Shown piece after piece: positions 39,494 through 53,197 of a stretch of 64,000 nt of DNA. A program made the position numbers and the translations under genes. This DNA is from Comamonas odontotermitis (GTDB lineage: Bacteria > Pseudomonadota > Gammaproteobacteria > Burkholderiales > Burkholderiaceae_C), in assembly GCF_014207855.1 (NCBI RefSeq), contig NZ_JACHKZ010000002.1:62001-126000 (forward strand). The letters are read 5' to 3'. The notes under the pieces were generated by a model. It was given only the letters and a program-made list of their open reading frames with translations. It was not told where the DNA came from and searched no databases. Numbering within the stretch: position 1 is the first letter of the stretch; every line of letters starts with the position of its first letter.

Positions 39494-40273
39494 TCAATAT
39501 GTGCCCGGGTACTCTCCGCCGTCAATCAGCCAGCTCTGGCCGGTGATGTATCCGGTGTGGGCGGATGCGAGGTAGGCGATCAGCGCGCCCACCTCGTCAG
39601 GCCTGCCAAAGCGGCCTGCGGGGTTGCCGGCTTCGCGGCTTCTGCGCACCTCGTCCGCTGGCTTTCCGCTCTGCCGGGCGAGCTTGTCGATATGGCGTGC
39701 CTGGGCGTCGGTGTCGAATGCACCGGGCAGCACATTGTTGATGGTGACGTTGTGGCGCACCGTCTGCCGCGCCAGGCCCGCCACAAACCCCACCAGGCCC
39801 GAGCGCGCGCCGTTGGACAGGCCCAGCTCCGCATGCGCCACCTTCACGCTGCGCGAGACGATGTTGATGATGCGGCCATAGCAGCGCTCCTGCATGCCGT
39901 CGACCACGCGGCGGATCATGTCGATGGGGCCGACCATCATCATGTCCAGCGCCTCATGCCAGGTCTGCTGCGTCCATTCACGAAAATCTCCGGGCGGGTA
40001 GCCGTCGGAGTTGTTCACCAGGATATCGGGTTGCGGGCAGGCGGCCAGCGCTGCTTCACGCCCGGCGTTGCTGGTGATGTCTGCCACCACGCAGCGCACG
40101 GTGCGGCCGCAATCCTGCGACAGCGCCTGCGCAGCCTCCTGCAAGGTGGCCTCGGTGCGCGCAGCGATCACCACATTCGCGCCCTCCAGCGCAAGGCGGC
40201 GCGCCGCTGCATAGCCCATGCCCTTGCTGCCACCCCATACCAGTGCGGATTTGCCGTTCAGCTCCAGATCCAT
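39494..40273 (-). CDS. SDR-family oxidoreductase, atypical active site
   Basis: Rossmann-fold dehydrogenase/reductase of 259 residues. The cofactor loop is VWGGSKGMGYAAARRLA and the substrate-side region LVNNSDGYPPG. Where classical members have Y-x-x-x-K it reads ELGLSNGARSG, so the catalytic tyrosine and lysine are not at the usual place; a subgroup with L-S-N-x-x-R is known but poorly characterised. It is the last gene of the leftward operon that starts with the di-iron protein, 2 bp after the reductase gene. It probably oxidises or reduces an intermediate of that pathway. Confidence 0.86.
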   Translation of the reverse strand: MDLELNGKSALVWGGSKGMGYAAARRLALEGANVVIAARTEATLQEAAQALSQDCGRTVRCVVADITSNAGREAALAACPQPDILVNNSDGYPPGDFREWTQQTWHEALDMMMVGPIDMIRRVVDGMQERCYGRIINIVSRSVKVAHAELGLSNGARSGLVGFVAGLARQTVRHNVTINNVLPGAFDTDAQARHIDKLARQSGKPADEVRRSREAGNPAGRFGRPDEVGALIAYLASAHTGYITGQSWLIDGGEYPGTY

Positions 40274-40275
40274 GC

Positions 40276-41307
40276 TTACTCCTCGTTCATTTCAGCTACC
40301 GTGGCCGCTTCGTTCTGGAAGATGAAGCTGTCGCTGTATATCTTGTCCATGGCCGCCCCCGACAGCGCCACCACGGCCTTGGCGTCAGCAATCATATGGG
40401 GCGATCCGCACAGGTAGATCGAATGCTCGGACAGGTCGTCAAAATCCTCGGCAATCGCATCCTGCACATAGCCCCGGCGGCCCGTCCAGCGGTCCGAGGC
40501 CCGCGAGAGCACAGGTACAAACCTGAACTCGTACAGACGGCCCGCCCAGGCCTCGATTTCATCCAGCAGGTACAGATCGGCTTCGCAGCGCATGCCCCAG
40601 TAAAAGTGGATCGGCGGGCAGTCCTCATCGTCCAGCAACGACTCCAGGATCGCCTTGATCGGCGCAAAGCCGGTGCCGGTGGCGGCAAATACCATGGGCT
40701 GGTAGTCGCTCGCGTGGTAGCAGAAAGTGCCGTGCGGCAGCTCCACATCGAACACATCGCCGGGCTGGGCGCTGGCCAGCACGCCTTCGGTAAAGCGGCC
40801 GCCCGCAATCTTGCGGACCTGCAAGGTGACGCGGTTGCCCTGCGGCGGTGAGGCCATCGAAAAGCTGCGGTGCTCGCCATCGGCCAGGCAGATGTTGAGG
40901 TACTGGCCAGCCGCATACTGCACACCATGGCCTTCGGGAAGGTCGAGCGCCAGGTGGTAGATATCGGGCGTGTGCATGCGCAGATCGGCCACCGTGGCGC
41001 GCAGCACGGTAGGCGGCGAGCAGGCCGGGCCCGTTTCCACGCTGATGACCAGATCCGACTGCGCACGCGCCTGGCAGGCCAGCGCATAGCCCTGCGCGTG
41101 CTCTTCCTCCGCCATGGCCAGCGGCAATTCGCCGTCGGCATAGGTAAAGCGGCCCTCTTCCACCTTCATGCGGCAGGTGCCGCAGCCGCCAAAAGTGCAG
41201 TCGTGCGGCAGGTTCACGCCCTGGCGCGTGGCGGCGTCCAGCACCGATTCGTCCGCGCCCACCTCAAACGATTGCTGCGTCTGCAGCCACAGTACGTGGT
41301 AGTTCAT
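40276..41307 (-). CDS. Ferredoxin-fused flavin reductase
   Basis: Electron-transfer protein of 343 residues with three domains. An N-terminal [2Fe-2S] ferredoxin (about 1-90) has cysteines in CTFGGCGTCRM and ALACQA. An FAD domain (about 95-195) contains HRSFSMASPP, and an NAD(P)H domain (about 200-320) contains ATGTGFAPIKAILESLL and YLCGSPHMI. The architecture is that of reductases of multi-component oxygenases (CDP-6-deoxyglucoseen-reductase-like). ATG 41307 begins MNYHVLWL; the frame extends 9 codons upstream. It lies in the same operon as the di-iron protein and could reduce it directly or through the two nearby ferredoxins. Confidence 0.9.
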   Translation of the reverse strand: MNYHVLWLQTQQSFEVGADESVLDAATRQGVNLPHDCTFGGCGTCRMKVEEGRFTYADGELPLAMAEEEHAQGYALACQARAQSDLVISVETGPACSPPTVLRATVADLRMHTPDIYHLALDLPEGHGVQYAAGQYLNICLADGEHRSFSMASPPQGNRVTLQVRKIAGGRFTEGVLASAQPGDVFDVELPHGTFCYHASDYQPMVFAATGTGFAPIKAILESLLDDEDCPPIHFYWGMRCEADLYLLDEIEAWAGRLYEFRFVPVLSRASDRWTGRRGYVQDAIAEDFDDLSEHSIYLCGSPHMIADAKAVVALSGAAMDKIYSDSFIFQNEAATVAEMNEE

Positions 41308-41329
41308 TGCACACCCCGCGCTCCATTGG

Positions 41330-41384
41330 TTCAATATGGCTCTGGCGCCCCATTGGCAAGCGCCATTAGCTCACTTTTTGATAT
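41330..41384 (-). repeat. Dispersed palindromic repeat, copy g
   Basis: Contains GGCTCTGGCGCCCCATTGGC and AAGCGCCATTAGCTCA, aligning with copies at 38120 and 24250. It fills the gap between the GlcG/HbpS gene and the reductase gene and supplies the former's stop codon. Confidence 0.6.
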
Positions 41385-41847
41385 CGGCCTGCACCACCAC
41401 GTCGGCAGCGGCGCCCAGGTGCTCGCGCAGCGCCTGCAAGGCCGCCACGCCGCATGCCGTGTCCTGCTCGCCGTTGCCGCCCGACAGGCCCACGCCACCG
41501 ATCACTTCGCCATTGACGACGATGGGGTAGCCCCCGACAAAGACCGCAAACTTGCCTTCAAAGCTCCACTGAATGCCGAAGGCTTCGTTGCCCGGCAGGG
41601 CGGGGCCGTTGGGCGCCGTGTTGAACAGGTGCGTCGAGCGTTTGTGGCCTGCGGCGGTGAAGGCCTTGTTCCATGCAATCTGGGGGCCGGTGACGCGGGC
41701 GCCGTCCATGCGTTCGAGCACCAGCGGAAAGCCGCCTTCATCGGTGATGCAGACGGACTCGGGCACGCCGATCTCCTGGGCCTTGGCCAAGGCGGCGCGA
41801 GCCATCACGCGGGCTTCTTCCAGTTCGAGTTTCAGTGCGGATTTCAT
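41371..41847 (-). CDS. GlcG/HbpS-family protein
   Basis: Protein of 158 residues of the GlcG/HbpS family, some of which bind haem or tetrapyrroles, while GlcG occurs in glycolate operons without known function. Family signs are MARAALAKAQEIGVPESVCI, DEGGFPLVLERMDGA, the AWNKAFTAAGHKRST helix and GGYPIVVNGEVIGGVGLSGG. AAGGAG is well placed before ATG 41847. It sits between the aldehyde dehydrogenase and reductase genes of the leftward operon. Such proteins often accompany oxidative catabolic genes. Confidence 0.88.
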   Translation of the reverse strand: MKSALKLELEEARVMARAALAKAQEIGVPESVCITDEGGFPLVLERMDGARVTGPQIAWNKAFTAAGHKRSTHLFNTAPNGPALPGNEAFGIQWSFEGKFAVFVGGYPIVVNGEVIGGVGLSGGNGEQDTACGVAALQALREHLGAAADVVVQADIKK

Positions 41848-41884
41848 AAATCTTCTCCTTTGCTGGGTATGCGCTATATGCGGC

Positions 41885-43342
41885 TCAGATGCCGCGGTAC
41901 ACCGTCTTGATCTGGGTGAAGAACTCCAGCCCGGCGCGGCCCGACTCGCGGAAGGTGGAGGTGCTGGAGTTCTTCAGCCCGCCAAAGGGCGCATTCACCA
42001 GGTTGCCGGTGGTGGTGCGGTTGATCTTGACGGTGCCGGACTGGATCTCGTTCGTGAACACGTGCATATAGCGCGGGTTGTTCGTCACGATGCTGGCCGA
42101 CAGGCCATATTCGGTGTCATTGGCCGTGGCCAGGGCATCGTCGAAATCGGCCACCTCGACGATGGCCAGCACCGGGCCGAAGATTTCTTCCTGGGCGATG
42201 CGCATGCTGTTCTTCACATCGGTGAACACGGCGGGTGAGACGTAGTAGCCATGCTCGAACGCCGGGCCCGTCAGGCGCTCGCCGCCGCACAGCAGGCGTG
42301 CCTCGCCCTTGCCGATGGCGATGTACCTGAGCACGGTCTGCAACTGCTTTTCGGTCGCCAGCGGCCCCAGGTCCATGCCCGACTCCATGCCGTCACCGAT
42401 CTTGAGCGCCGCCACGCGGGCGAGCAGCTTTTCGGTAAAAGCCGCTTTGACGCTGGGCACCACCAGAATGCGGCTGGTGCCGGTGCAGGCCTGGCCGGTG
42501 AGCGAGAAGCCGCCCTTGACCGCCAGATCAACGGCCAGATCCAGATCGGCGTCTTCCATCACGAGCAGCGGGTTCTTGCCACCCAGCTCCATCTGCAGGC
42601 GGGTCGTCAGGTGCACGGTGCGGTGGATTTGCGCGCCCGCCGTGGTCGAGCCGGTGAACGAGATCGCACGGATATTGCTGGAATTGGTGATGACCGGCCC
42701 CACCTCGCCAGCGCGCCCGGTAACGCAGTTGACCACGCCCGCAGGAATGCCCGCCTTCTCCAGCGCTTCCACCAGGCGGATGCCCGAGAGCGGCGCATCG
42801 GACGAGGGCTTGAACACCACCGTGTTGCCGGTGATCAGCGCCGGAGCCAGCTTGCGCGCAGGAATCGAGGCGGGAAAGTTCCATGGCGAGATGACGGTGA
42901 CCACGCCCAGCGGCTCGCGGTGGCTGAACACATGCATGTTCGGGTCATCCTGCGGGTAGGTCTCGCCGCCGTAGGTCTGGCCTTCGGTGGCGTAGAAGCG
43001 GAAGGTCTGCGCGCTGCGCAGAAACTCGTCCTTGGCCTGGGCAAACTGCTTGCCTTCCTCGCGCGTCAGATCCTTGGCAAACTGCACGGCGTTCTGCTCC
43101 AGGTAGGCCGCCGCGTCGTTAAGGATCTTGGCGCGCTTGCCAATCGGCGTCCTGCGCCAGCCGTCAAAGGCCTTTTGCGCAGCCTGTACGGCCGCTTCGG
43201 CGTCGGCCGGGCCCGATGCCTGAAAGCGGCCGACCACATCACGGGTATCGGCAGGGTTGAGGTTGTCAAAGGTGCTGCCCAGAAGGCAAGGCACCCAGGC
43301 GCCGTCGATGTAGTTCAAAAACGTGTGGACTGTGTCAGCCAT
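41885..43342 (-). CDS. Aldehyde dehydrogenase (semialdehyde dehydrogenase-like)
   Basis: NAD(P)+-dependent dehydrogenase of 485 residues. The cofactor loop is FTGSTTAGAQIHR, the general base glutamate is in LQMELGGKNPLLV, and the catalytic cysteine is in GFSLTGQACTGTSRIL; the C-terminal EEIFGPVLAI is conserved. It resembles alpha-ketoglutaric semialdehyde dehydrogenases of the sugar-acid and amino-acid pathways. The reading frame is open far upstream, but MADTVHTFLNYIDGAW at 43342 is the family start. It follows the di-iron protein gene by 178 bp. The substrate is probably an aldehyde released in this pathway. Confidence 0.92.
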   Translation of the reverse strand: MADTVHTFLNYIDGAWVPCLLGSTFDNLNPADTRDVVGRFQASGPADAEAAVQAAQKAFDGWRRTPIGKRAKILNDAAAYLEQNAVQFAKDLTREEGKQFAQAKDEFLRSAQTFRFYATEGQTYGGETYPQDDPNMHVFSHREPLGVVTVISPWNFPASIPARKLAPALITGNTVVFKPSSDAPLSGIRLVEALEKAGIPAGVVNCVTGRAGEVGPVITNSSNIRAISFTGSTTAGAQIHRTVHLTTRLQMELGGKNPLLVMEDADLDLAVDLAVKGGFSLTGQACTGTSRILVVPSVKAAFTEKLLARVAALKIGDGMESGMDLGPLATEKQLQTVLRYIAIGKGEARLLCGGERLTGPAFEHGYYVSPAVFTDVKNSMRIAQEEIFGPVLAIVEVADFDDALATANDTEYGLSASIVTNNPRYMHVFTNEIQSGTVKINRTTTGNLVNAPFGGLKNSSTSTFRESGRAGLEFFTQIKTVYRGI

Positions 43343-43520
43343 GGTGGTTGTTTTTGTGTGATGTGGAGAAGTGGGCCACTGCAGGCAGCGGGCTGAAGAT
43401 CGTGGAGTTGGGGCCTCGACCGGCCGATGGCCGGGGGTGCATGCCGTCTCTCCATCCGCCGAGCATGCGCAGGCTCTGCGCGACCGGCAGGGTGGCAGCC
43501 AGATGGAGAGAGAAGCGGAA

Positions 43521-44258
43521 TCAGGCGGCCAGCAGCTCTTCTGCAGGAATCTGCAGATCCTTGGCCACGTAGTCGTGGTAGAGCGCCGTGGTGTAGAGCA
43601 GGCGCATCTGGGCGCCGATTTCGCAGATGCGCAGGCACTTGGCTTGCAGCTCTGGCGTATTGGCGTGCTCCAGCACGATCTGGTAGCCGCGCTCGCCATG
43701 GATTTCGTCCGAGACGATGTGCAGGTCGAAGAACTCGACATCCTCGTCGGAGAAGCCGTATTTCTCGCGCAGCGTCGGGGTCTGCTTGCGGTAGATCGAC
43801 GGCACCTGCGATTCGAGGCCGACCACGAGGCCCGCCACCGCCACCACGGGGTCTTCGCGCATCGCCACGGCATAGCACCACGACTGCAGGCCTCGGGTGG
43901 TGGGAGACATATTGTCGGGGTTGACCACGCGCTCGCGGGTGGTGCCGCAGGCCTCGGCAAAGCGGATCAGCAGATCGGTGTGGCGGTCGCCACCGATTTC
44001 CTCTTCATACATGTTGGCCAGCAGAAAGTCCTTGGCCTCGGTCATGTGGTCTGGCGTGCGGGCGTAGAGGTAGCCCAGGTAATCGGCGAACGGGCCGACG
44101 TAGTGGTAATGGTTCTCGGCCCAGCGAGCCAGATGCTCACGGCTCAGGCGACCGGTGGCCCAGGCCACGCTGAAAGGGGCCTTGTTGGCGCTCTTGCCCT
44201 TGATGGCGTTTTCCAGTGCGGCGCGGAATTCGTCGCGGTTCAGCAGTTTGTTCGTCAT
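43521..44258 (-). CDS. Haem-oxygenase-like di-iron oxygenase family protein
   Basis: Helical protein of 245 residues of the haem-oxygenase-like (PqqC/TenA/CADD) fold. All six ligands of the di-iron form can be read: E86 and H93 (E-x6-H in EEIGGDRH), E149 in VGLES, and H180, D184 and H187 in LHIVSDEIHGERG. This pattern matches CADD, UndA and BesC type oxidases, which cleave or hydroxylate amines, amino acids and fatty acids, and not metal-free TenA. AGAGGA precedes the ATG. It is the first gene of the leftward operon and is divergent from a ferredoxin gene. The substrate is unknown. Confidence 0.85.
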   Translation of the reverse strand: MTNKLLNRDEFRAALENAIKGKSANKAPFSVAWATGRLSREHLARWAENHYHYVGPFADYLGYLYARTPDHMTEAKDFLLANMYEEEIGGDRHTDLLIRFAEACGTTRERVVNPDNMSPTTRGLQSWCYAVAMREDPVVAVAGLVVGLESQVPSIYRKQTPTLREKYGFSDEDVEFFDLHIVSDEIHGERGYQIVLEHANTPELQAKCLRICEIGAQMRLLYTTALYHDYVAKDLQIPAEELLAA

Positions 44259-44319
44259 GGCGAGTCCTCTGTGGATGGTGGGTACGTCGCTGAATCAAAC
44301 CGAGCCAAGCGACGGAGTT

Positions 44320-44348
44320 AGAATACTGTATACAACATACCAGGTCAA
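44320..44348 (-). promoter_or_regulatory. Promoter and operator of the leftward di-iron operon
   Basis: On the minus strand TTGACC (44348-44343) and TATTCT (44325-44320) are exactly 17 bases apart. The spacer and -10 contain TTGTATACAGTATTC, matching the operator element at 44523 and 48785. Binding there would block RNA polymerase. The remainder of the 304-bp divergent gap shows no gene. Confidence 0.65.
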
Positions 44349-44522
44349 CCATTTCCAGAAATTTCTCACCCCGGTAGTTTCCCTGACTGGCACAGCCAAT
44401 TCACCCCGATCACCTCACTGGAATTCTGTATTTCTCCTCTGCAGAATGAAAAACAGACACTCCAGCAGAATGCTCGCGCCAATGCGCTCCTCACGTTATC
44501 CCTATTGCTCAAAATTTCTTAT

Positions 44523-44539
44523 TTGTATACAGTATACGT
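44523..44539 (+). promoter_or_regulatory. Operator at the rightward ferredoxin operon
   Basis: TTGTATACAGTATACGT is a near-palindromic element with half-sites GTATAC/GTATAC, 24 bp before the ferredoxin ATG. A TTGCTC at 44505 with a TACAGT 17 bases later is a plausible promoter overlapped by it. Probable target of the GntR regulator at 47311-47964. Confidence 0.65.
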
Positions 44540-44562
44540 AATAGAACTACCGAGGATGTTCC

Positions 44563-44886
44563 ATGCCCCTGATCACGTTTCACAAGAACGGCCAGACCTT
44601 CCAGGACGAGGTCAAGGCCGGCTCCAACCTGGTGGTGCGCGCAGGCATCAAGCAGTACCCGTACCCGCATCTGACCTACCAGTGCGGCATGGGCAAGTGC
44701 GCCACCTGCGCCTGCAGGATCATTGCGGGCGCTGAAAACCTGCCGCCTCCCAACTGGAAAGAGAAAAAGCAGCTGGGCGACCGCCTGGACCAGGGCTACC
44801 GCCTGGCCTGCCAGCTGTGGCTGGAACATGACCTGGAGCTGGAGCAGATCCCGCTGGCCGCCGCTCCTGCCGTATCTGCCGCCTGA
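44563..44886 (+). CDS. [2Fe-2S] ferredoxin 1
   Basis: Plant-type ferredoxin of 107 residues. Cluster cysteines are in YQCGMGKCATCACR (C-x4-C-x2-C) and, distally, RLACQLW. A tail of about 20 residues rich in leucine, glutamate and alanine extends beyond the fold. GAGGAT is placed 6 bases before the ATG. It is the first gene of the rightward operon and divergent from the di-iron protein, for which it is a likely electron donor together with the ferredoxin-fused reductase. An additional cysteine follows the third ligand (CATCAC). Confidence 0.9.
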   Translation: MPLITFHKNGQTFQDEVKAGSNLVVRAGIKQYPYPHLTYQCGMGKCATCACRIIAGAENLPPPNWKEKKQLGDRLDQGYRLACQLWLEHDLELEQIPLAAAPAVSAA

Positions 44887-44903
44887 CCCGAGGAGCCCGC
44901 ACC

Positions 44904-45224
44904 ATGTTTGTCATCCTCACCAGCAAGCCCGGCCAATACCGCACCGTGCCGAGCGCCGACATTGAACTGCTGGAAGCCTGGAACTACCAGTTTTATGGCC
45001 GCGTGCTGGCCCAATTCGTGCTCGGCAGGCTCCTGCGCGAGACCAAGGTGCAGGTGATTGAAGAGGATGCCTCGGGCACCGTCAACGCCGTGCCTTCCAA
45101 GTTTCTGGAACGTTTTGACACGCTTGCACAGGCGCACGCCGAGTTGCAGCACCTGTGCAACTTTGGCTCGCTCGACGCCCAGCTGATCTCCGTCCCCCTG
45201 CCGCAAGCCGCAGCTTCTGCCTGA
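44904..45224 (+). CDS. Unknown 106-residue protein between two ferredoxins
   Basis: Soluble protein with no family I recognise. It begins MFVILTSKPGQYRTVPSAD, has an aromatic patch EAWNYQFYGRVLAQFVLGRL, a central VQVIEEDASGTVNAVPSKFL and a helical DTLAQAHAELQHLCNFGS, then an alanine-rich end. It contains a single cysteine, so it does not carry an iron-sulfur cluster on its own. Position 17 bp after ferredoxin 1 and 16 bp before ferredoxin 2 makes it a likely accessory or coupling subunit of the electron-transfer chain. Confidence 0.8.
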   Translation: MFVILTSKPGQYRTVPSADIELLEAWNYQFYGRVLAQFVLGRLLRETKVQVIEEDASGTVNAVPSKFLERFDTLAQAHAELQHLCNFGSLDAQLISVPLPQAAASA

Positions 45225-45240
45225 CTGCCGGAATCCACAC

Positions 45241-45531
45241 ATGCCCACCATCACCTTCGTCACCAACGACAACAAGGCCGTCGAGGCCCCGGACAACAGC
45301 AACCTGCTGCGTGTATCGCTGCGCGAAAAAGGCGGCATCCCCTTCAAATGCGGCGGCGGCCTGTGCGGCACCTGCAAGTGCAGGATCGTCGAAGGCCTGG
45401 CCAACACCGACGCCGTCAAGCCCAAGGAGCGCAAGCACTTCACTGAAGAGCAGTTCGCCCAAGGCCACCGGCTGGCCTGCCAGACCTTTGTGAATGGCGA
45501 CATCAGCGTGAGCTGGCAGTTGCCCGCATGA
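45241..45531 (+). CDS. [2Fe-2S] ferredoxin 2
   Basis: Plant-type ferredoxin of 96 residues with cluster cysteines in FKCGGGLCGTCKCR and RLACQTF. It is only moderately similar to ferredoxin 1, so the two are probably not a recent duplication. Its stop overlaps the start of the TauE/SafE permease gene (ATGA). Having two distinct ferredoxins in one operon suggests either two electron-accepting enzymes or a relay. Confidence 0.9.
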   Translation: MPTITFVTNDNKAVEAPDNSNLLRVSLREKGGIPFKCGGGLCGTCKCRIVEGLANTDAVKPKERKHFTEEQFAQGHRLACQTFVNGDISVSWQLPA

Positions 45532-46274
45532 TGGCCTGGGCAAGCTTTCCCGACCCGCTGAGTGCAGGCCGCTACCTGGCCATGGGTCTGATGGTGCTGA
45601 CTGGCGCCGCCATGCAGGGCGTGGGCGGCCTGGGCTACGCCATGTTCTGCGCGCCGCTGGCTGCCATCTTCTTTCCAGAGCTGGTACCCGGCCCGCTGCT
45701 GGCCGTGGGCGCGCCGCTCGCCCTTCTGGCCTATCTGCGCGAGCGCGATGCGCTCAACGGCCATGTGGCGGCTGCCACGCTGGCAGGCCGCGTCATCGGT
45801 ACCTTTGCGGCAACGGGCCTGTTGGTGTATTTCAGCGCCAGCGCGCTCTCCATCTTGTTTGCTGTTCTTATTTTGATAGCTGTCACCCTCAGCACCATCG
45901 GCTGGCGGGTACAACCCACGACGGCCAACCTGTCGATTGCCGGAGTGGCCAGCGGCATCATGGGCACGATCACCGCAGCCGGTGGCCCGCCGTTTGCCAT
46001 TGCCATGCAGCACCTGGCGCCGCCCACCATGCGCTCCACGCTGGGTGTGGTGTTTTTTGCGGGCACCATCGTCTCGATCATGGCTCTCGCCTGGGTCGGC
46101 AAGATGGGCGCGCAGGAGTGGTGGTACTTTGCCGTGCTGCTGCCGTGGATGCTGGTGGGTTTTTTCGCATCCAACCGGCTGGCGCGCCATGTCTCCAGAA
46201 CCGCCATCCGCCAGTGGCTGCTGGGCACGGCGGCGGTGAGCGCCTGCGTCATTTTGCTCAAGATCTGGCTCTAG
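45528..46274 (+). CDS. TauE/SafE-family membrane permease
   Basis: Membrane protein of 248 residues with about seven to eight hydrophobic segments, typical of the TauE/SafE (sulfite exporter) family. Early AAMQGVGGLGYAMFCAPLAA and the second-repeat ASGIMGTITAAGGPPFAIAMQ are characteristic. It is translationally coupled to ferredoxin 2. Members export sulfite, sulfoacetate or organic anions; here it might export a product of the pathway, but the substrate is not readable. Confidence 0.87.
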   Translation: MMAWASFPDPLSAGRYLAMGLMVLTGAAMQGVGGLGYAMFCAPLAAIFFPELVPGPLLAVGAPLALLAYLRERDALNGHVAAATLAGRVIGTFAATGLLVYFSASALSILFAVLILIAVTLSTIGWRVQPTTANLSIAGVASGIMGTITAAGGPPFAIAMQHLAPPTMRSTLGVVFFAGTIVSIMALAWVGKMGAQEWWYFAVLLPWMLVGFFASNRLARHVSRTAIRQWLLGTAAVSACVILLKIWL

Positions 46275-46335
46275 AAACGTGCTTCCAGGTGCCTGCCTCC
46301 CCTTCTTCCCCTCCCCACTCTGCACAACACACCCC

Positions 46336-47265
46336 ATGCTGCACATTACCGACGCCATGGTGGACACGCTGGTGTCCGCCGATGAAGCCCTTACCGCCAT
46401 GCGCACCGCCTTTACCGCCTTTGGCAAAGGCGAGGCCGCGATGCAGGCGCGCGAGCGCACCGATGCCGGAGGCGTCAAGCTCTCCACCCTGGGGGCGGTG
46501 ATTCCCTCGCTGGGCGTGACCGGCGCCAAGGTCTACACCACGATCGCCGGCCAGTTCAACTTTGTGATCCTGCTGTTCTCCACCGACACCGGCGCACCCC
46601 TCGCCACGATGGAGGCCAATGCCATCACCCGCCTGCGCACGGCTGCAACCACGGTGCTGGCGGCCGAACACCTGGCCCCCGCCCAGCCGCAGCAGTTGTT
46701 TCTGTGCGGGGCCGGTGTGCAGGGCGTAGCCCATGCCCAGCAGCTGGTGCGCCACCTGGGCCTGCAGCGCATAGCGGTGTTCGACCCTTACGCAGCAGAC
46801 GACCTGGCCGCGCGCCTGGCGCACCTCACCGGCGCCCAGGTCACCCGCGTGCACGATACCGAGGGCGTGGCCGATGCCGAGATCGTCGTCACCGCCTCGC
46901 GCTCCAAAGACCCGCTGTTTGCCGGGGAGCGCATCGCAGAAGGCGCCTTTGTGGCGGCGATTGGCTCCAGCCTGCCGCATACGCGCGAACTCGACGATGC
47001 CGCCCTGGCGCGCGCGTCGCAGATCGCCGTGGAGTGGAAAAAGCAGGCGCTGACCGAGGCGGGCGACCTGGTGCTGGCAGACCCGGCGCTGCAGGTGGCT
47101 GGCAAAGTGGTGGAGCTGGGCGATATCGTCTGCGGCAAGCATGCCAGCCTGGGCGGCGGTGCGGGCATTCGCCTCTACAAGGCTGTGGGCGTGGGTCTGG
47201 AAGACATCGCGCTGGCCGGCCTCGCCTACCAAAACCATCAGAACTATCAAAAAAAGAGCGCCTAG
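46336..47265 (+). CDS. Ornithine cyclodeaminase / mu-crystallin family protein
   Basis: NAD(P)-dependent enzyme of 309 residues. The Rossmann motif is FLCGAGVQGVAHAQQL, and the N-terminal part holds KVYTTIAGQFNFVILLFSTDTG and AITRLRTAATTVLAAEHLA. The family includes ornithine cyclodeaminase, alanine dehydrogenase, ketimine reductase and delta1-pyrroline-2-carboxylate reductase; the specific reaction cannot be assigned. ATG 46336 begins MLHITDAMVD. It ends the rightward operon. Its last codons contain the transcription terminator of the convergent GntR gene. Confidence 0.88.
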   Translation: MLHITDAMVDTLVSADEALTAMRTAFTAFGKGEAAMQARERTDAGGVKLSTLGAVIPSLGVTGAKVYTTIAGQFNFVILLFSTDTGAPLATMEANAITRLRTAATTVLAAEHLAPAQPQQLFLCGAGVQGVAHAQQLVRHLGLQRIAVFDPYAADDLAARLAHLTGAQVTRVHDTEGVADAEIVVTASRSKDPLFAGERIAEGAFVAAIGSSLPHTRELDDAALARASQIAVEWKKQALTEAGDLVLADPALQVAGKVVELGDIVCGKHASLGGGAGIRLYKAVGVGLEDIALAGLAYQNHQNYQKKSA

Positions 47266-47273
47266 CGCGCTCT
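47249..47273 (-). terminator. Intrinsic terminator of the GntR gene
   Basis: AGAGCGC (47255-47261) pairs with GCGCTCT (47267-47273) over a five-base loop; on the minus strand the stem is followed by seven T. It lies inside the end of the ornithine cyclodeaminase-like coding region, including its stop codon. Confidence 0.7.
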
Positions 47274-47310
47274 GGGTGGGCAATAGCGCCCTATTTCTCT
47301 AAAAAAGCGC

Positions 47311-47964
47311 TCAGGGCTCGATGCCAGCCGCGTTGTAGATATGGCGCGCTGCCAGCAGGCCCGCCAGCTCGGGATCGCCCTTGATCACGGCGCGCAGGAT
47401 AGCGGCATGCTCTTCCCAGTTCTGCGGCGCACGCTCGCGGCTGCGCGGGGCAAACAGCACGGCGGTGCGGTCGCGCAGGGACAGCATCACCTCTTGCAAT
47501 ACCGAATTGGCCGCCACCTTGCCCAGCGCGGAGTGAAACTTCTGGTTCAGTGTGGCCAGCACCTCGTCGTCGCCGGAATGGGCGTTTTTCACGCCTTCGG
47601 CGAGCAGGGCCTCCAGCTCCGCAATCTGCTGGGGGTCGTGGCGCTTGGCGGCCAGGCGCGCATTGAGCGCTTCCAGCGTGGCGCGCACCTCGACCAGTTC
47701 ACGCAGCAGATCGCCATGGAATTGGGCCACCGAAGCACCCCGGCGCGGCTCGATGATCACCAGGCCGCTGGAGGCCAGCTGGCGCAGCGCTTCGCGCACG
47801 GGCATGCGCGATACCGCAAATTCCTCAGACAGGCGCTCCTCCACCAGGCGCTCGCCCGAGGCCAGCTCGCCCGACATGATCTTTTCGCGCAGCGCTTCCA
47901 CCAGCTGCTGCGTCAGCGGCGAGTGGTTGAGTCCTGTTTTTTTGTCTCCGGTGGCAATGGGCAT
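47311..47964 (-). CDS. GntR/FadR (FCD)-family transcriptional regulator
   Basis: Regulator of 217 residues. The winged helix-turn-helix has LTQQLVEALREKIMSGEL and RLVEERLSEEFAVSRMPVREAL. The helical FCD effector domain (about 85-215) shows LRELVEVRATLEALNARLAA and the metal/ligand histidines in NQKFHSAL and EEHAAIL. I take ATG 47964 because the HTH then starts at the usual distance; the frame is open further upstream and no start has a strong ribosome binding site. It lies inside the di-iron gene region and is the natural reader of the repeated TTGTATACAGTATAC sites. Confidence 0.88.
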   Translation of the reverse strand: MPIATGDKKTGLNHSPLTQQLVEALREKIMSGELASGERLVEERLSEEFAVSRMPVREALRQLASSGLVIIEPRRGASVAQFHGDLLRELVEVRATLEALNARLAAKRHDPQQIAELEALLAEGVKNAHSGDDEVLATLNQKFHSALGKVAANSVLQEVMLSLRDRTAVLFAPRSRERAPQNWEEHAAILRAVIKGDPELAGLLAARHIYNAAGIEP

Positions 47965-48236
47965 GAAAGTCGGTCCGATCGATACGTGGTATTCCCGAGC
48001 CCCCGCCAGCCCTGGTAGGGCAGGCAGGTGTGCATCCGCCATGGCAGGCCGATGGCAGCAGCACGGCGCACGCACCCGGCACGATACACCGGCAGCGCGC
48101 CACCGCCGAGGCTGAGGCCGCGCATCAGTTTACATGCCCGGGCGGCACTCTACCTGTTCTGGATACAACTCAACCGCCTCGTTTTGACGAAGATTCAGAA
48201 ATCTCGCGCGATGTTCTGCTCCCTGCATTCGCCGGA

Positions 48237-48464
48237 TCAGCGTGCAGAACGGCGGATTTCAGCGAACGAGCGGGTGTCCTGCATGGCCTGTGCCCACAGG
48301 CGTTCGGCAGGGATTTCGGCCAGGCGCTTGGCCTGCCAGTTGACGAAAGCGGTCTCGATGCGCGAGAGCACTGATAGCGATGCAGGCAGCGCTGGCTGCA
48401 CCACAGCGGTCAGCTGTTGCATGGCGGCTTCGCGGGAGGTGATGGGAAGAGATGCGGATTTCAT
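48237..48464 (-). CDS. Hypothetical 75-residue protein
   Basis: Small protein with no recognised family. It starts MKSASLPITSREAAMQQL and is predicted to be almost fully helical, with an ALPASLSVLSRIETAFVNWQ core and a basic C-terminus. The start at 48464 lies just downstream of an operator-like sequence at 48500-48522, hinting that it belongs to the same regulon. Codon usage is compatible with coding. The alternative ATG at 48509 overlaps that site and is less likely. Confidence 0.55.
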   Translation of the reverse strand: MKSASLPITSREAAMQQLTAVVQPALPASLSVLSRIETAFVNWQAKRLAEIPAERLWAQAMQDTRSFAEIRRSAR

Positions 48465-48835
48465 AGCTCGGTGCCCTTGTGTTCCTGGTGTTAACCCTAG
48501 TGTATCCAATGTACGAATACAAGAACAACGGCCACGGCAATAACCCCACCCTATCCATGCTTGCGGGCACGAAGATTCATCGCATTGTTTTTAAAGAAAT
48601 TTCTCAATTGATTTCTTTCAATGGCACCGCAAAGCATGGCACAGGCATGACTTTAGGCGAGGTGGATCATTGTGCAAATCATCCATTTTTGTATACGAAG
48701 CATGCGATAGATTGCATTTAAACCCGGGTTAATTAGATGATGCAGTGCAGCATATCTGGTATTCCCTGATGATTTTTTGCTTTTTTGTATTTAGTATACA
48801 AATTGGCTGTTAAATCATACCAAGGAGTAGCCACG
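48465..48835. other. AT-rich divergent control region
   Basis: A 371-bp gap, clearly richer in A and T than its surroundings. It holds two operator-like half-conserved sites (TTGTATTCGTAC-type at 48500-48522 on the minus strand and TTGTATACGAAGCAT at 48689-48703) besides the strong site at 48785-48801. An 80-codon open frame (48479-48721) does not look coding. Confidence 0.5.
48785..48801 (+). promoter_or_regulatory. Operator upstream of the permease/gamma-glutamyltransferase unit
   Basis: TTGTATTTAGTATACAA is a near palindrome aligning position by position with TTGTATACAGTATACGT at 44523. It lies 34 bp before the permease ATG. Probable GntR-regulator binding site. Confidence 0.65.
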
Positions 48836-50374
48836 ATGGATCCGTCAGTTTCAATCGGTGCCGCGCACTGGGCCTATCTGGCCGGGGTGCTGGTCATCAC
48901 TCTCACCATGGCCTTCCGCGCAAACGTGGTGGTGCCTTCGCTGATTGCCACCATCGTGGTGGCCTTTGCCTGGAGCGGCAGTGCCATCACCGGCATTGGT
49001 AGCATTTTCAGTGCCAGCATGGTTGCAGCCAAAGAGCTGTTCAACATCTTCCTGATCATTGCGCTGATGACGGCGCTGCTCAACTCCCTCAAGGACCTGG
49101 GCTCCGACATCCGCATGGTCAAACCGTTTCGTGCAGTCATGAAAAACGGCCACACGGCCTATTTCATCCTGGCACTGGTTACCTACCTGATTTCGCTGTT
49201 CTTCTGGCCCACACCTGCCGTGCCGCTGGTGGCCGCCGTGCTGCTGCCCGCTGCCATTGCCGCGGGCCTGCCGCCGATAGCGGGAGCCATGGCCATCGCC
49301 ATTGCCGGCCAGGGCATGGCGCTGTCGTCCGACTATGTGATCGGCGTGGCGCCAGGCATCAGCGCCAAGGCTGCTGGCGGCATCAGCGCGGTTGCGGTGG
49401 GCGACAAGGCGCTGCTGCTGTCCTGGGTGGTGGGCATGATTGCCCTCTTCCTGTCGTACTTCAAGATCCGCAAATACATCGTGCCGGGCAACAACGCCTT
49501 GCTGGAGCGCTGGGAGCTCAACCCCATCGGCATCAATGCGCAAGTGGAAGGCGGCGGCACCTTCAACAAGGCCGAGATCGCCCAGGGCACGGCGCACGAC
49601 GCCGATCTGGGCACCAATTCGGAGCTGGAAGCAGCCCTCAAGAAGACCAAAAGCACCGAGGGCGCCTCCAAGCTGTTTGCGGTCGTCACGCCGCTGGCGT
49701 TTCTGATCGTCATTCTGGTCATGCTCGGCCCCAAGTTCATCCAGGGTGCGCCCGACTTGAAAGGCGGCGATGCGGCCATGCTGATCGGCGGCGTGGCGGC
49801 CTTGCTGATGATCTGGGCCACCACGGCACGTAACGGTTTTCGCAAAATGCTCGACACCGCCGCCGACCACATCACCGACGGCTTCGTCTTTGCCTTCAAG
49901 GCCATGGGCGCAGTGCTGCCGATTGCCGGCTTCTTCTTCATCGGATCACATGAGACCGCAGGCCCCATCCTGGGCATTGCGCCCGGTCAGCCGGTGCCAG
50001 ACCTGCTGTTCGAGCTGGTGAAGGCGAGCCAGCACCTGATTCCCGACAGCCAGTTGCTGGTGTCGTTTGGTGTGCTGATCATGGGCATGATCACCGGAAT
50101 CGACGGCTCCGGCTTTGCGGGCCTGCCGCTGACCGGCACCCTGTCCGGCGCGCTGGGCCCGGCCTCGGGCATGGATGTCTCGGCCCTCGCAGCCCTGGGC
50201 CAGATGGGCGCGGTATGGACCGGTGGAGGCACCTTGATCGCCTGGTCGTCACTGATCGCCGTGGCCGGGTTTGCGCGGGTCAATGTGCTGGAGCTGGCCC
50301 GCGCCCTGCTCATCCCGGTGGTGCTGGGCCTGATTGCCTCCGTGTTCACCGCCGTGGCGCTCTGGGGCGCCTGA
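48836..50374 (+). CDS. Polytopic permease of unknown substrate
   Basis: Inner-membrane transporter of 512 residues with about eleven to twelve hydrophobic segments and a soluble insertion at about 215-275 (NPIGINAQVEGGGTFNKAEI to LKKTKSTEGASK). Its layout resembles the ion-transporter superfamily (NhaC, DcuC and GntP-like carriers), with paired glycine-rich re-entrant regions such as GISAKAAGGISAVAVG and GLPLTGTLSGALGPASG, but I cannot assign a family. ATG 48836 is fixed by AAGGAG 8 bases upstream; the longer frame runs over the operator. It probably imports the substrate of the pathway. Confidence 0.75.
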   Translation: MDPSVSIGAAHWAYLAGVLVITLTMAFRANVVVPSLIATIVVAFAWSGSAITGIGSIFSASMVAAKELFNIFLIIALMTALLNSLKDLGSDIRMVKPFRAVMKNGHTAYFILALVTYLISLFFWPTPAVPLVAAVLLPAAIAAGLPPIAGAMAIAIAGQGMALSSDYVIGVAPGISAKAAGGISAVAVGDKALLLSWVVGMIALFLSYFKIRKYIVPGNNALLERWELNPIGINAQVEGGGTFNKAEIAQGTAHDADLGTNSELEAALKKTKSTEGASKLFAVVTPLAFLIVILVMLGPKFIQGAPDLKGGDAAMLIGGVAALLMIWATTARNGFRKMLDTAADHITDGFVFAFKAMGAVLPIAGFFFIGSHETAGPILGIAPGQPVPDLLFELVKASQHLIPDSQLLVSFGVLIMGMITGIDGSGFAGLPLTGTLSGALGPASGMDVSALAALGQMGAVWTGGGTLIAWSSLIAVAGFARVNVLELARALLIPVVLGLIASVFTAVALWGA

Positions 50375-50375
50375 G

Positions 50376-51848
50376 ATGGTGGACGAACCATTGCTGGGCG
50401 TAGTTGGCAGCAGTGCCATGGTGGCAACCGGCCATCCGCTCGCCGCACAGGCCGCGCAGGCCCAGTTGCTGGCGGGCGGATCGGCGGTGGATGCCGCCAT
50501 TGCCGCCGACGCGGTGCTCGGCGTGGTCGAGCCCATGGCCACCGGCGTGGGCGGCGACTTGCTTGCCATGCTGGTGCCCCCTGGCCAGTCACCCACCAGC
50601 TACAACGGCACGGGCCGCGCGCCGCTCGGCCTGACTGCGGCAATGATCGAGGCCCTGCCCGGCCGGAAGATTCCCGAGCGCCATCCGCTCTCCGTCACCA
50701 CGCCCGGCGCCGTGCAGGGCTGGTGGGATCTGCACCAGCGCTATGGCAAGCGCCCCTGGGCCAGCCTGTTCGATGCAGCGGTGGATGCGGCGCGCCATGG
50801 CTTTGCGGTGGCGCCCGTGGCCGCACGCGAGTGGGCCCTGTTTCAGCAGGTGATCGCCAGGGACCCCGCCAGCGCCGCACTCTACCGCGCGCAGCACCCG
50901 CCCCGGGCCGGTGAGCGTTTTGACAACCCTGCACTGGCCCGGTTGCTGGGTGAGATTGCCGCGCAGGGGCCCAGCGCCTTCTATGAGGGGCACATTCCCC
51001 AGGCCGCCGAGCGCACCATGCAGCGCCACGGCGGCGTGCTGGCTGCTGCCGATTTTGCGGCGCACCATGGCCACTTCTGCACTCCGGTCAGCGCCGATTT
51101 CTGCGGCGCCCAGGTGCACGAATGCCCGCCCAACACCCATGGCGTGGCCGTGCTCCATGCCCTGCAAGCCCTGGAGAGCCAGCCACCACAGGCCGACCAG
51201 CCTGAAGACGCCGTGCGCATGGTGCAGGCCATGGAAGCGGCCATGGAATATGCCAAACAGACCGTGGCCGACCCGGCGGGCAACACCGTCTGTACCACCG
51301 TGGTCGATGGCGACGGCTTTGCCATCACCTTGATGAGCAGCATCTTCAAACGCTTTGGCTCCGGCCTTGCCGTGGCCGAAGGCGGCTTTGTGCTGCAAAA
51401 CCGGGGCCATGGCTTTGCGCAGCCCGGCCACATCAACGGACCTGCGCCCGGCAAGCGCCCCTACCACACGGTGGTGCCGGGCGCAGTGACCCGCAACGGC
51501 CAGTTCCTCGCCGTCATTGGCGTGGTGGGCGGTGCCATGCAGCCGCAGGGCCAGGTGCAACTGCTCACCCGCATGCTGGCAGGTGGCGAAGCCCCGCAGG
51601 CTGCGCTGAACCGGCCACGCTGGCGACTGGAGGGGCAGCGTGTGCTGGCCGTGGAGGCAGGCACGCCAGATGAAGTCACCGCAGCCCTGCGCGCAGCGGG
51701 CTACCGCGAGCCGGGCAACGAGGGCGAGCTGGGCGGGCGCAGCGATTTTGGCGGCGCGCAGTGCATCCTGCGCCTGCAAGACGGGCGGCTTTGCGGTGCC
51801 TCCGATCCGCGCAAGGACGGCATGGCCCTGGCCGTTGACCGGCAGTAG
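50376..51848 (+). CDS. Gamma-glutamyltransferase family protein
   Basis: Ntn-hydrolase of 490 residues, somewhat short for the family (about 530-580). The N-terminal part has GSAVDAAIAADAVLGVVEPMATGVGG. The autoprocessing/nucleophile region reads GNTVCTTVVDGDGFAI: the threonine is kept but the usual T-T-H is T-V-C. No signal peptide is visible, so it is probably cytoplasmic, unlike periplasmic GGT. It begins 1 bp after the permease stop and likely acts on the imported compound, releasing glutamate or another acyl group. Related cephalosporin-acylase-like enzymes are an alternative. Confidence 0.85.
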   Translation: MVDEPLLGVVGSSAMVATGHPLAAQAAQAQLLAGGSAVDAAIAADAVLGVVEPMATGVGGDLLAMLVPPGQSPTSYNGTGRAPLGLTAAMIEALPGRKIPERHPLSVTTPGAVQGWWDLHQRYGKRPWASLFDAAVDAARHGFAVAPVAAREWALFQQVIARDPASAALYRAQHPPRAGERFDNPALARLLGEIAAQGPSAFYEGHIPQAAERTMQRHGGVLAAADFAAHHGHFCTPVSADFCGAQVHECPPNTHGVAVLHALQALESQPPQADQPEDAVRMVQAMEAAMEYAKQTVADPAGNTVCTTVVDGDGFAITLMSSIFKRFGSGLAVAEGGFVLQNRGHGFAQPGHINGPAPGKRPYHTVVPGAVTRNGQFLAVIGVVGGAMQPQGQVQLLTRMLAGGEAPQAALNRPRWRLEGQRVLAVEAGTPDEVTAALRAAGYREPGNEGELGGRSDFGGAQCILRLQDGRLCGASDPRKDGMALAVDRQ

Positions 51849-51901: not shown

Positions 51902-53170
51902 TTAGCCAGCGGCCTGCGCCGCCTTCAGCGCATCGTCGATCACCTCGATCCAGTGGCGCACCGGCACCTCGGTGCCCGCCTGCAGATGGGTGATGCAGCC
52001 GATGTTGGCCGACAGAATGGCTGCGGGTGGTGTCTCCTGGCTGCAGGCTTCGTTCAGGGTATTGATCTTGCGATCACGAAGCTGGTGCGAAATTTCGGGC
52101 TGCAGCAGCGAGTAGGTGCCCGCCGAGCCGCAGCACAGGTGAGATTCGACGCGCGAGACGCGAATATCAAAACCCAGGGCCCGCAGGCTGGATTCGACAC
52201 CGCCGCGCAGCTTCTGGCCGTGCTGCAGCGTGCAGGGCGGGTGGTAGGCCAGCGGGGCATCGGGCACCTGCAGCCTGCCCTGGAAGCGCTGCTCCAGCTC
52301 TGGCAGCATGGCGGGCAGCAGCTCGCTCAGGTCGCGCGCCAGCGCGCTGATGGTGGCAGCACGCTCGGCGTATTCCTTGTCATGGCGCAGCAGATAGCCG
52401 TAATCCTTGACCATGACACCGCAGCCCGAGGCCGTACTGATGATGGCTTCGATCTGCTTTTTGGCGACCCAGGGCCACCAGGCGTCGATATTGGCGCGCG
52501 CCTGCTCCAGCGCGCCCTGCGGGTCGCTCAGGTGCTGCTGCACCGCGCCGCAGCATTTGGCAGCGGGTGTCACCAGCGTCTGGATGCCAACGGCATCGAG
52601 CACGCGCGCGGTGGCGGCATTGATGTTGGGCAACATGGCAGGCTGCACGCAACCGGCCAGCATCATCACCTTGCGGTCGTGCTCGCGCGACGGCCAGCGG
52701 CCCGCGCTCGGCGCCTTGGGCAGCTTGTCCTTCAAGCCGCCGGGCAGCAGGGGCTTGGCGATGCGGCCCAGCGCCACTGCAGCGCCAAAGGCCTTCGAGG
52801 TCATGCCTGTGCGCAACGCCCAGCGGGCGGCGCGTTCGCCCAGCGGGCGCTCCACTTTGTCATCGACGATGTGGCGGCCGATGTCCAGCAGCTTTCCGTA
52901 TTGAACGCCGCTGGGGCAGGTGGATTCGCAGTTGCGGCAGGTCAGGCACCTGTCCAGGTGCTCCTGCGTCTTGCGGGTGGGCTCCTGGCCTTCGAGCACC
53001 TGCTTGATCAGGTAGATGCGGCCACGCGGGCCGTCCAGCTCGTCGCCCAGTAATTGGTAGGTGGGGCAGGTGGCGGTGCAGAAGCCGCAGTGCACGCACT
53101 TGCGCAGGATGGCTTCGGCCTCCTGGCCTTCGGGCGTGTTCTTGAACTCGGGGGCTAATTGGGTTTGCAT
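51902..53170 (-). CDS. glcF: Glycolate oxidase iron-sulfur subunit GlcF
   Basis: Subunit of 422 residues with two [4Fe-4S] ferredoxin motifs, CVHCGFCTATCPTYQ (about 25-40) and CLTCRNCESTCPSG (about 75-90). Two CCG domains follow, with AAKCCGAVQQH and HLCCGSAGTYSL. It passes electrons from the flavin subunits to the membrane quinone pool during oxidation of glycolate or D-lactate. It lies downstream of glcE with a 27-bp gap on the same strand, but the catalytic GlcD gene is not adjacent. Confidence 0.93.
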   Translation of the reverse strand: MQTQLAPEFKNTPEGQEAEAILRKCVHCGFCTATCPTYQLLGDELDGPRGRIYLIKQVLEGQEPTRKTQEHLDRCLTCRNCESTCPSGVQYGKLLDIGRHIVDDKVERPLGERAARWALRTGMTSKAFGAAVALGRIAKPLLPGGLKDKLPKAPSAGRWPSREHDRKVMMLAGCVQPAMLPNINAATARVLDAVGIQTLVTPAAKCCGAVQQHLSDPQGALEQARANIDAWWPWVAKKQIEAIISTASGCGVMVKDYGYLLRHDKEYAERAATISALARDLSELLPAMLPELEQRFQGRLQVPDAPLAYHPPCTLQHGQKLRGGVESSLRALGFDIRVSRVESHLCCGSAGTYSLLQPEISHQLRDRKINTLNEACSQETPPAAILSANIGCITHLQAGTEVPVRHWIEVIDDALKAAQAAG

Positions 53171-53197
53171 GGTGCAGGGGTACCTGGATTAGCGGAT

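Follow-up and report, generated by a model that had tools for sequence, protein, structure and literature searches.

Positions 39494 to 51848 of the analyzed window, a 64,000-nucleotide stretch of the 4.5-Mb genome of Comamonas odontotermitis (G000:C2:62001-126000), contain a real, conserved and regulated gene system, which we regard with fair confidence as a multicomponent di-iron oxygenase of the haem-oxygenase fold together with a catabolic regulon arranged around it. At its center is a 245-aa member of the haem-oxygenase-like di-iron oxygenase (HDO) superfamily, predicted from its sequence to bind two metal ions and to react with O2. The most likely function of the whole is that of a catabolic, aldehyde-forming oxygenase with several components. 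Three features of the system are new: a gene for a small protein, h106, located between two ferredoxin genes; an operator, TGTATACnGTATACA, shared by several transcription units; and an operon for an importer and a hydrolase that is encoded elsewhere in the same genome (in trans, contig G000:C13) and carries this operator as well. The initial annotation had missed all three, whereas every gene that it did name proved to be an open frame at the position given and a member of the family named, except the permease, which matched no family.

The gene set was compared across 80 loci, which are the best 80 of 467 HDO-bearing stretches detected in contigs from one genome per species of 84,980 species, all chosen by their HDO match. 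According to their record titles these loci span alpha- and betaproteobacteria; HDO identity among them is 83–95%, and the nearest named relatives are Comamonas strains (94–95%). A GntR homologue was found in all 80 loci (43–92% identity), and the genes of both [2Fe-2S] ferredoxins (Fd1 and Fd2), of h106 and of the GlcG/HbpS-like protein (GlcG) in 79 loci each. Aldehyde dehydrogenase (ALDH, 76/80), the permease (74/80) and a ferredoxin-fused flavin reductase (FNR, 67/80) were nearly as frequent, followed by the TauE/SafE-family gene (TauE, 56/80), the ornithine-cyclodeaminase-family gene (OCD, 41/80), the SDR gene (17/80, with at least 60% identity in 11 loci and below 30% in six) and the gamma-glutamyltransferase (GGT)-type gene (6/80). 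Some of the absences fall on short contigs (L024, L048). Fd1, h106 and Fd2 are collinear in 79/79 loci, ALDH adjoins GlcG on the same strand in 76/76, and the distance between HDO and Fd1 is at most 800 bp in 53/79, while the overall gene order varies among Comamonas, Cupriavidus, Achromobacter, Variovorax and Bradyrhizobium. Because 79 of 80 loci keep each ferredoxin and GlcG, and 76 keep ALDH, in shuffled orders, chance does not account for the set. These data bear out the earlier proposal of a di-iron protein that has its own electron-transfer chain and belongs to a conserved set with an ALDH and a permease: each ferredoxin accompanies HDO in 79/80 loci, and the genes are not scattered in relatives. 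OCD and SDR, previously counted among the members of the set, do not belong to its core.

An HDO match (E ≤ 1e-20) occurred in 11 of 300 Burkholderiales genomes, namely seven orthologues with at least 80% identity and four relatives with 30–33%, and in five of 398 genomes from the phylum, one of them distant. This distant protein (G434, L102:9269-10063, 44% identity) lies beside a short Rieske-domain protein (PF00355) and is possibly another HDO with its own iron-sulfur partner; its locus also holds a GntR protein 53% identical to that of the window. In Cupriavidus basilensis KF708, two HDO and two permease copies share one locus (L019:5894-10726). A second HDO paralogue with 33% identity was seen in genome G180 (L104:9514-10200), and no window-type ferredoxin gene was called nearby.

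In an alignment of the window HDO with 25 relatives (84–95% identical to it), the residues E86, H93, E149, H180, D184 and H187 were invariant in all 26 rows. They align with the metal ligands of CADD, in the CADD sequence of the solved structure, and these three histidines and three carboxylates have the same order and spacing as in CADD. The complete di-iron ligand set described in the initial annotation was thus correct for all six residues, and with these ligands in place a metal-free TenA/thiaminase is unlikely. Among solved structures, HDO comes closest to 4-aminobenzoate synthases (E 1.7e-19) and to PqqC, a resemblance that might suggest a self-sacrificing 4-aminobenzoate synthase of the CADD type, or a PqqC/TenA-like protein, whose neighbors are incidental. 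We consider this very improbable. CADD and NePabS are the closest HDO sequences with a solved structure and have the same six ligands, but the positions of the sacrificed residues, which we take to be numbered Tyr27 and Lys152 in CADD and located by counting along the alignment, are occupied by Ser30 and Gln159 in HDO, both invariant in the 26 rows. HDO scored 97.8 bits against the model for CADD-type 4-aminobenzoate synthases (TIGR04305, cut-off 200) and 49.4 bits against that for PqqC (TIGR02111, cut-off 240), and incidental neighbors are contradicted by the conservation of the gene set and by the shared operator. As both scores are far below the cut-offs, the protein is by sequence an HDO and neither a CADD-type synthase nor PqqC; it also matches PF03070 (38.1 bits, cut-off 22), a Pfam family shared with TenA/thiaminase II. 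The hydroxylase belongs to the haem-oxygenase-like family, so the system lacks the ferritin-like hydroxylase by which bacterial multicomponent monooxygenases are recognized.

When eight genes were compared in 11 loci, HDO was the most constrained, followed by GlcG. The nonsynonymous divergence (dN) of HDO was 0.03–0.12 and that of h106 0.24–0.57 at comparable synonymous difference. Since HDO did not stand out from the seven other genes in synonymous difference (pS 0.40–0.71) while its dN was low, strong constraint fits the high HDO identity better than recent horizontal transfer, which was set aside as its cause.

The reductase is BenC-like according to NCBIfam models and contains Fer2, FAD and NAD domains. 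The cluster cysteines of Fd1 (C41, C46, C49 and C83) were invariant in 14 rows and those of Fd2 (C37, C42, C45 and C80) in 13 rows, each retained from 17 after removal of rows whose tblastn ends reached stop codons; for the same reason, the alignment of h106 was reduced from 29 rows asked for to 25 and then to 20. From these components we infer an electron route from NAD(P)H via FNR and a ferredoxin to HDO. The h106 protein had no match in Pfam or NCBIfam, and homology searches beyond those gave no relative. Its AlphaFold2 model (pLDDT 89) consists of strands plus one helix and had no Foldseek match in the PDB at E ≤ 0.001. Among the 300 Burkholderiales genomes, h106 was present in six, all of which belong to the seven with HDO orthologues (hypergeometric p = 7e-12), and of 369 genomes drawn from the class only that of the window gave a match. 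Because its linkage to the ferredoxins is constant, h106 is a candidate effector or docking protein.

The operator TGTATACnGTATACA occurs at three promoters in the window, those of HDO, Fd1 and the permease. With up to three mismatches the pattern had four matches in the window compared with 0.21 expected, and none of 100 shuffles reached four. The palindrome GTATAC was found six times in the window, five times inside the two promoter regions of the cluster. Across the 80 loci, the 75,792 bases that precede HDO, Fd1 and the permease contain 233 copies and the other 1,493,888 bases 197, which is a 23-fold enrichment; when 23 further palindromes of the same composition were counted and those with 20 upstream copies or fewer set aside, AGATCT ranked next with 4.5-fold. 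AGATCT itself was counted 45 times in 45 loci upstream of these genes, possibly as a second site or through a coding-sequence effect. In the whole genome TGTATACnGTATACA has nine places with at most two mismatches, three of them in this locus, and at three mismatches the total of 46 places is near the background (35 for a control pattern), so that only the better sites are meaningful.

For the relatives, a site with at most three mismatches within 300 bp upstream of a gene was counted, and hydrolase and NMT1 matches below 45% identity were excluded (which reduced the amidase from 22 to 21 loci). Such sites preceded HDO in 78/80 loci, the permease in 60/74, an amidase gene in 13/21 and the gene of an NMT1-type binding protein in 6/6, compared with 3/554 background genes. 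They were also recorded for TauE (32/56), ALDH (18/76), OCD (6/40) and h106 (1/79), and not at all for GlcG (0/79), FNR (0/67), Fd2 (0/79) and an isochorismatase-like gene (0/6); genes without any site as a rule sit inside operons. In 43/52 loci TauE and the permease are transcribed divergently from starts that lie near each other, and most TauE sites are therefore those of the permease. The neighboring GntR/FCD protein may be the one that binds the operator and represses these units.

One of the off-locus sites identified the trans operon. It encodes an NMT1 binding protein, an ATPase, a permease and an isochorismatase-like hydrolase (G000:C13:31780-35231, corresponding to L115:1281-4732), and the operator at C13:35231 lies about 130 bases before the start suggested by homology. 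Five of the six off-locus sites with at most two mismatches were inspected by eye, and at four of these nothing was recognized. The importer and hydrolase of the trans operon are 62–71% identical to those in the loci of relatives, where an NMT1/SsuA-type ABC importer and an isochorismatase-like hydrolase were found in six loci from Variovorax, Caldimonas and Candidimonas. The same hydrolase (E ≤ 1e-50) occurred in four of the 300 Burkholderiales genomes, all HDO-positive (p = 1e-7; 3/3 and p = 8e-6 without a 44%-identical member in G180). In the Achromobacter-like genomes G138 and G237 it again lies in a trans ABC operon, with GTATAC preceding the first gene by 83 and 137 bases and no full operator site.

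Amide hydrolases of different families accompany the system, and 35 of the 80 loci hold a member of the five families searched (that of L023 being a weak match at the edge). The isochorismatase-like hydrolase (PF00857) is RutB-like, with 86 and 82 bits against a cut-off of 378. The amidase, present in 21 Cupriavidus and Paraburkholderia loci, scored 725 and 617 bits in the two cases tested against NCBIfam PRK06170 (cut-off 503). The GGT-type protein of the window scored 271.6 bits against TIGR00066 (cut-off 357.85), and its nearest PDB entries belong to other branches of the GGT fold (2nlz, 'cephalosporin acylase', and 2i3o, 'GGT related'). Behind its catalytic Thr, where we presume the gamma-glutamyl-binding motif to lie, it has QNRGHGF, of which QNRG is common to 2nlz and 2i3o, the two proteins with which it was compared at this place. 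The protein is probably a GGT-fold amidohydrolase and not a typical gamma-glutamyltransferase. Gamma-glutamyl compounds, suggested as substrates in the initial annotation, were accordingly rejected, also because the gene occurs in only 6/80 loci. Nitrogen release from an amide-type compound gained support from the amide-hydrolase families that stand under the operator in some of the loci. Enzymes acting on primary amides are known in these families, and the step that they have in common is probably amide hydrolysis. Beside the core set of genome G569 (L103:1639-16129), genes for a DUF1028 protein, a further GGT-family protein and a putative oligopeptide ABC transporter were observed.

The permease was assigned to no family by Pfam, NCBIfam or further sequence searches. 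Its structural model (pLDDT 81) matched MleN, TRAP SiaQM, NaCT, INDY and ArsB in Foldseek, with a best E of 5e-6 (MleN) and a TM score of about 0.5, and on the basis of this model a carboxylate-type carrier is likely. The GlcG protein has EfgA and NahX as relatives in the PDB. EfgA is a formaldehyde sensor whose binding residues, as stated in the accessible part of its description, are largely conserved in DUF336 homologues (PMC8153426). Although only distantly related to EfgA, HbpS and PduO-C, the window GlcG has identical residues at the EfgA formaldehyde-site positions K57, S114 and D121 (counted by hand, chain numbers shifted by 20), and a role as aldehyde sensor or scavenger is possible. 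ALDH scored 549 bits against NF042993 (cut-off 770); its nearest relatives are alpha-ketoglutaric-semialdehyde dehydrogenases, and given this score alpha-ketoglutaric semialdehyde is not claimed as its substrate. Because GlcG keeps the EfgA residues and ALDH is found in 76/80 loci, an aldehyde is the likely product of the oxygenase, and the frequencies of ALDH and of the DUF336 gene (79/80) support the aldehyde formation proposed earlier. Among solved structures, the OCD protein has a very close counterpart in 3hdj ('probable ornithine cyclodeaminase', E 1.9e-92); its own role is probably that of an accessory imine reductase.

An aldehyde would also be formed by oxygenolytic desulfonation, in which HDO would split a small sulfonate, which may be N-acylated, at its C–S bond after uptake by the NMT1/SsuA-type importer, and TauE would export the sulfite. 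Known sulfonate oxygenases yield an aldehyde plus sulfite, the importer matches SsuA_fam and TauC-like models, and the TauE/SafE gene is present in 56/80 loci, with the operator upstream in 32 of these 56. We nevertheless judge this route unlikely. The importer matches are below curated cut-offs and its ABC class carries many substrates; TauE has no NCBIfam match, is absent from 24/80 loci and mostly shares its operator with the divergent permease; and no sulfite-oxidizing gene was noticed by eye, although no search was aimed at one.

In the catabolic system that we favor, a small nitrogen-containing carboxylate or amide would enter via the IT-type permease and, in the genome of the window, through the NMT1/SsuA-type ABC importer from G000:C13 as a second entry. 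The ferredoxin-fused FAD reductase would take electrons from NAD(P)H and hand them to Fd1 and/or Fd2, from which they would reach the di-iron center of HDO, and h106 would couple or gate this transfer like the effectors of other di-iron oxygenases. HDO and O2 would convert the substrate to an aldehyde, either directly or via hydroxylation followed by collapse; the DUF336/GlcG protein would bind or signal the aldehyde and ALDH would oxidize it. Amide hydrolases, of the GGT-fold type in the window, isochorismatase-like in trans and of the amidase-signature type in Cupriavidus and Paraburkholderia, would release nitrogen either ahead of the oxygenase step or after it, and the GntR/FCD protein would repress the units through TGTATACnGTATACA. 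The sharing of one operator by importers and hydrolases argues for catabolism. A biosynthetic HDO, by which an amino acid or peptide would be iteratively desaturated or N-oxygenated with the help of the ferredoxins as in MboA/MboB, is improbable and in our estimate slightly more so than desulfonation. The HDOs covered by a review serve biosynthesis and have mainly amino or fatty acids as substrates (PMC13108848, accessible text), and MboA requires a dedicated flavin reductase with an iron-sulfur cluster (PMC13185094, accessible text). Importers and amide hydrolases under a common operator and the nearly constant ALDH (76/80) speak against biosynthesis, and reading of core neighborhoods by eye revealed no gene for a peptide ligase or nonribosomal peptide synthetase, at which no search was aimed.

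Several observations weigh against the catabolic oxygenase system. The loci compared are the 80 nearest of the 467 and are related among themselves, so their counts are not phylogenetically independent. FNR is absent from the available stretch in 13/80 loci (11 alphaproteobacterial, one short contig and one metagenome-assembled genome), where another reductase must serve, and ALDH is absent from four, one of them a short contig. The operator precedes Fd1 in only 14/79 and GntR in only 5/80 loci, and neither the GGT-type gene (0/6) nor SDR (0/12) has a site, although several of these genes are internal to operons. No member of the five hydrolase families searched was found in 45/80 loci, and the trans hydrolase was missing, at the cut-off applied, from three of the seven HDO-positive genomes (G098, G158 and G175). 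In G180, the 44%-identical hydrolase lies beside a Rieske-oxygenase-like gene with neither ABC genes nor operator nor GTATAC, and an HDO with 80% identity occurs without a detected h106, which is hence not strictly needed.

The coordinates of all features are listed in Table 1. Downstream of the GGT-type gene, the window contains GlcF- and GlcE-like genes of the glycolate oxidase type, recognized by eye (51902-54358). They are kept in 3/80 loci only, all from Comamonas, and are therefore probably unrelated to the system. Gene labels in relatives that were derived from reading translations by eye serve as leads only.

Table 1 Genes and operator sites of the predicted HDO oxygenase system (positions in the window).
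Feature	Position	Strand	Family match or remark
SDR dehydrogenase, lineage-specific	39494..40273	-	PF13561
FNR, fused [2Fe-2S] ferredoxin-FAD-NAD reductase	40276..41334	-	Fer2 + FAD_binding_6 + NAD_binding_1
GlcG/HbpS-like (DUF336) protein	41371..41847	-	PF03928
ALDH, aldehyde dehydrogenase	41885..43363	-	PF00171, E 4e-162
HDO, haem-oxygenase-like di-iron protein, predicted terminal oxygenase	43521..44258	-	PF14518, E 4.4e-38
Operator, HDO promoter	44320..44334		2 mismatches
Operator, Fd1 promoter	44524..44538		1 mismatch
Fd1, [2Fe-2S] ferredoxin	44563..44886	+	PF00111
h106, candidate effector or docking protein, 106 codons	44904..45224	+	no Pfam or NCBIfam match
Fd2, second [2Fe-2S] ferredoxin	45241..45531	+	PF00111
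TauE/SafE-family permease	45528..46274	+	PF01925
OCD, ornithine-cyclodeaminase/mu-crystallin family	46279..47265	+	PF02423
GntR/FCD regulator, presumed operator binder	47311..48075	-	PF00392 + PF07729
Operator, permease promoter	48786..48800		2 mismatches
Permease, IT-superfamily-like fold (model)	48836..50374	+	no Pfam family; ATG start by eye behind ribosome site
GGT-fold Ntn-hydrolase	50376..51848	+	PF01019; start by eye, 2 bases after permease stop

No description of this gene cluster was found in the open-licence literature, supplements excluded, and no named pathway matched the set there, as the initial annotation had stated; homarine- and trigonelline-type pathways, followed as leads, gave none with these genes in the literature. 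More than 10,000 HDOs are predicted and about a dozen characterized, and the accessible text of the review places them in natural-product biosynthesis, describes the studied ones as needing no protein effector and cites a single redox partner, MboB (PMC13108848). The protein of the window shares PF14518 and haem-oxygenase-like sequence with the superfamily members treated there (UndA, BesC, SznF, HrmI, PolF and MboA; PMC13108848), and differs from the characterized HDOs by a catabolic-looking regulon, two ferredoxins, a fused reductase and a small partner protein. MboA–MboB from mangotoxin biosynthesis, perhaps the first characterized dedicated pair of HDO and redox partner according to its authors, likewise gives its HDO a flavin/[2Fe-2S] reductase of its own, but it is a biosynthetic peptide acetylenase with one reductase, and the accessible text describes neither separate ferredoxins nor an h106-like protein (PMC13185094). 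DtpC of Acinetobacter baumannii is an HDO-domain protein linked to a role outside known biosynthesis, namely desiccation tolerance; the part of the report available mentions neither a redox partner nor a function in catabolism, and its authors still consider a biosynthetic role (PMC13232832). The aminoisobutyrate monooxygenase AibH1H2GF, in which a non-classical di-iron hydroxylase, a ferredoxin and a reductase are encoded in a catabolic cluster with an ALDH and a permease, is by analogy a precedent for a catabolic three-component di-iron oxygenase of such composition, while its hydroxylase has an amidohydrolase TIM-barrel fold and its ferredoxin is of the Rieske type, so that the terminal oxygenases are unrelated (PMC7782822, accessible text). 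Soluble methane monooxygenase (sMMO) and T4MO also have a reductase, a ferredoxin and a small accessory protein beside the di-iron oxygenase, but their hydroxylase fold is different and the T4MO ferredoxin is a Rieske protein.

A new architecture that unites a hydroxylase of the haem-oxygenase fold, two distinct [2Fe-2S] ferredoxins, h106 as an effector of unrecognized fold and amide-type nitrogen catabolism is conceivable, and we put it forward tentatively, with somewhat less than even confidence. If true, this would give the HDOs their first protein effector and their first catabolic role, so far as the literature consulted shows. The substrate should be findable, because the genes under the operator include two importers and several families of amide hydrolases, which can guide growth and induction tests. 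Characterized HDOs have been described as biosynthetic; the locus suggests that a conserved catabolic branch, equipped with a full electron chain, exists in alpha- and betaproteobacteria, and this system would test whether a partner protein can gate HDO chemistry.

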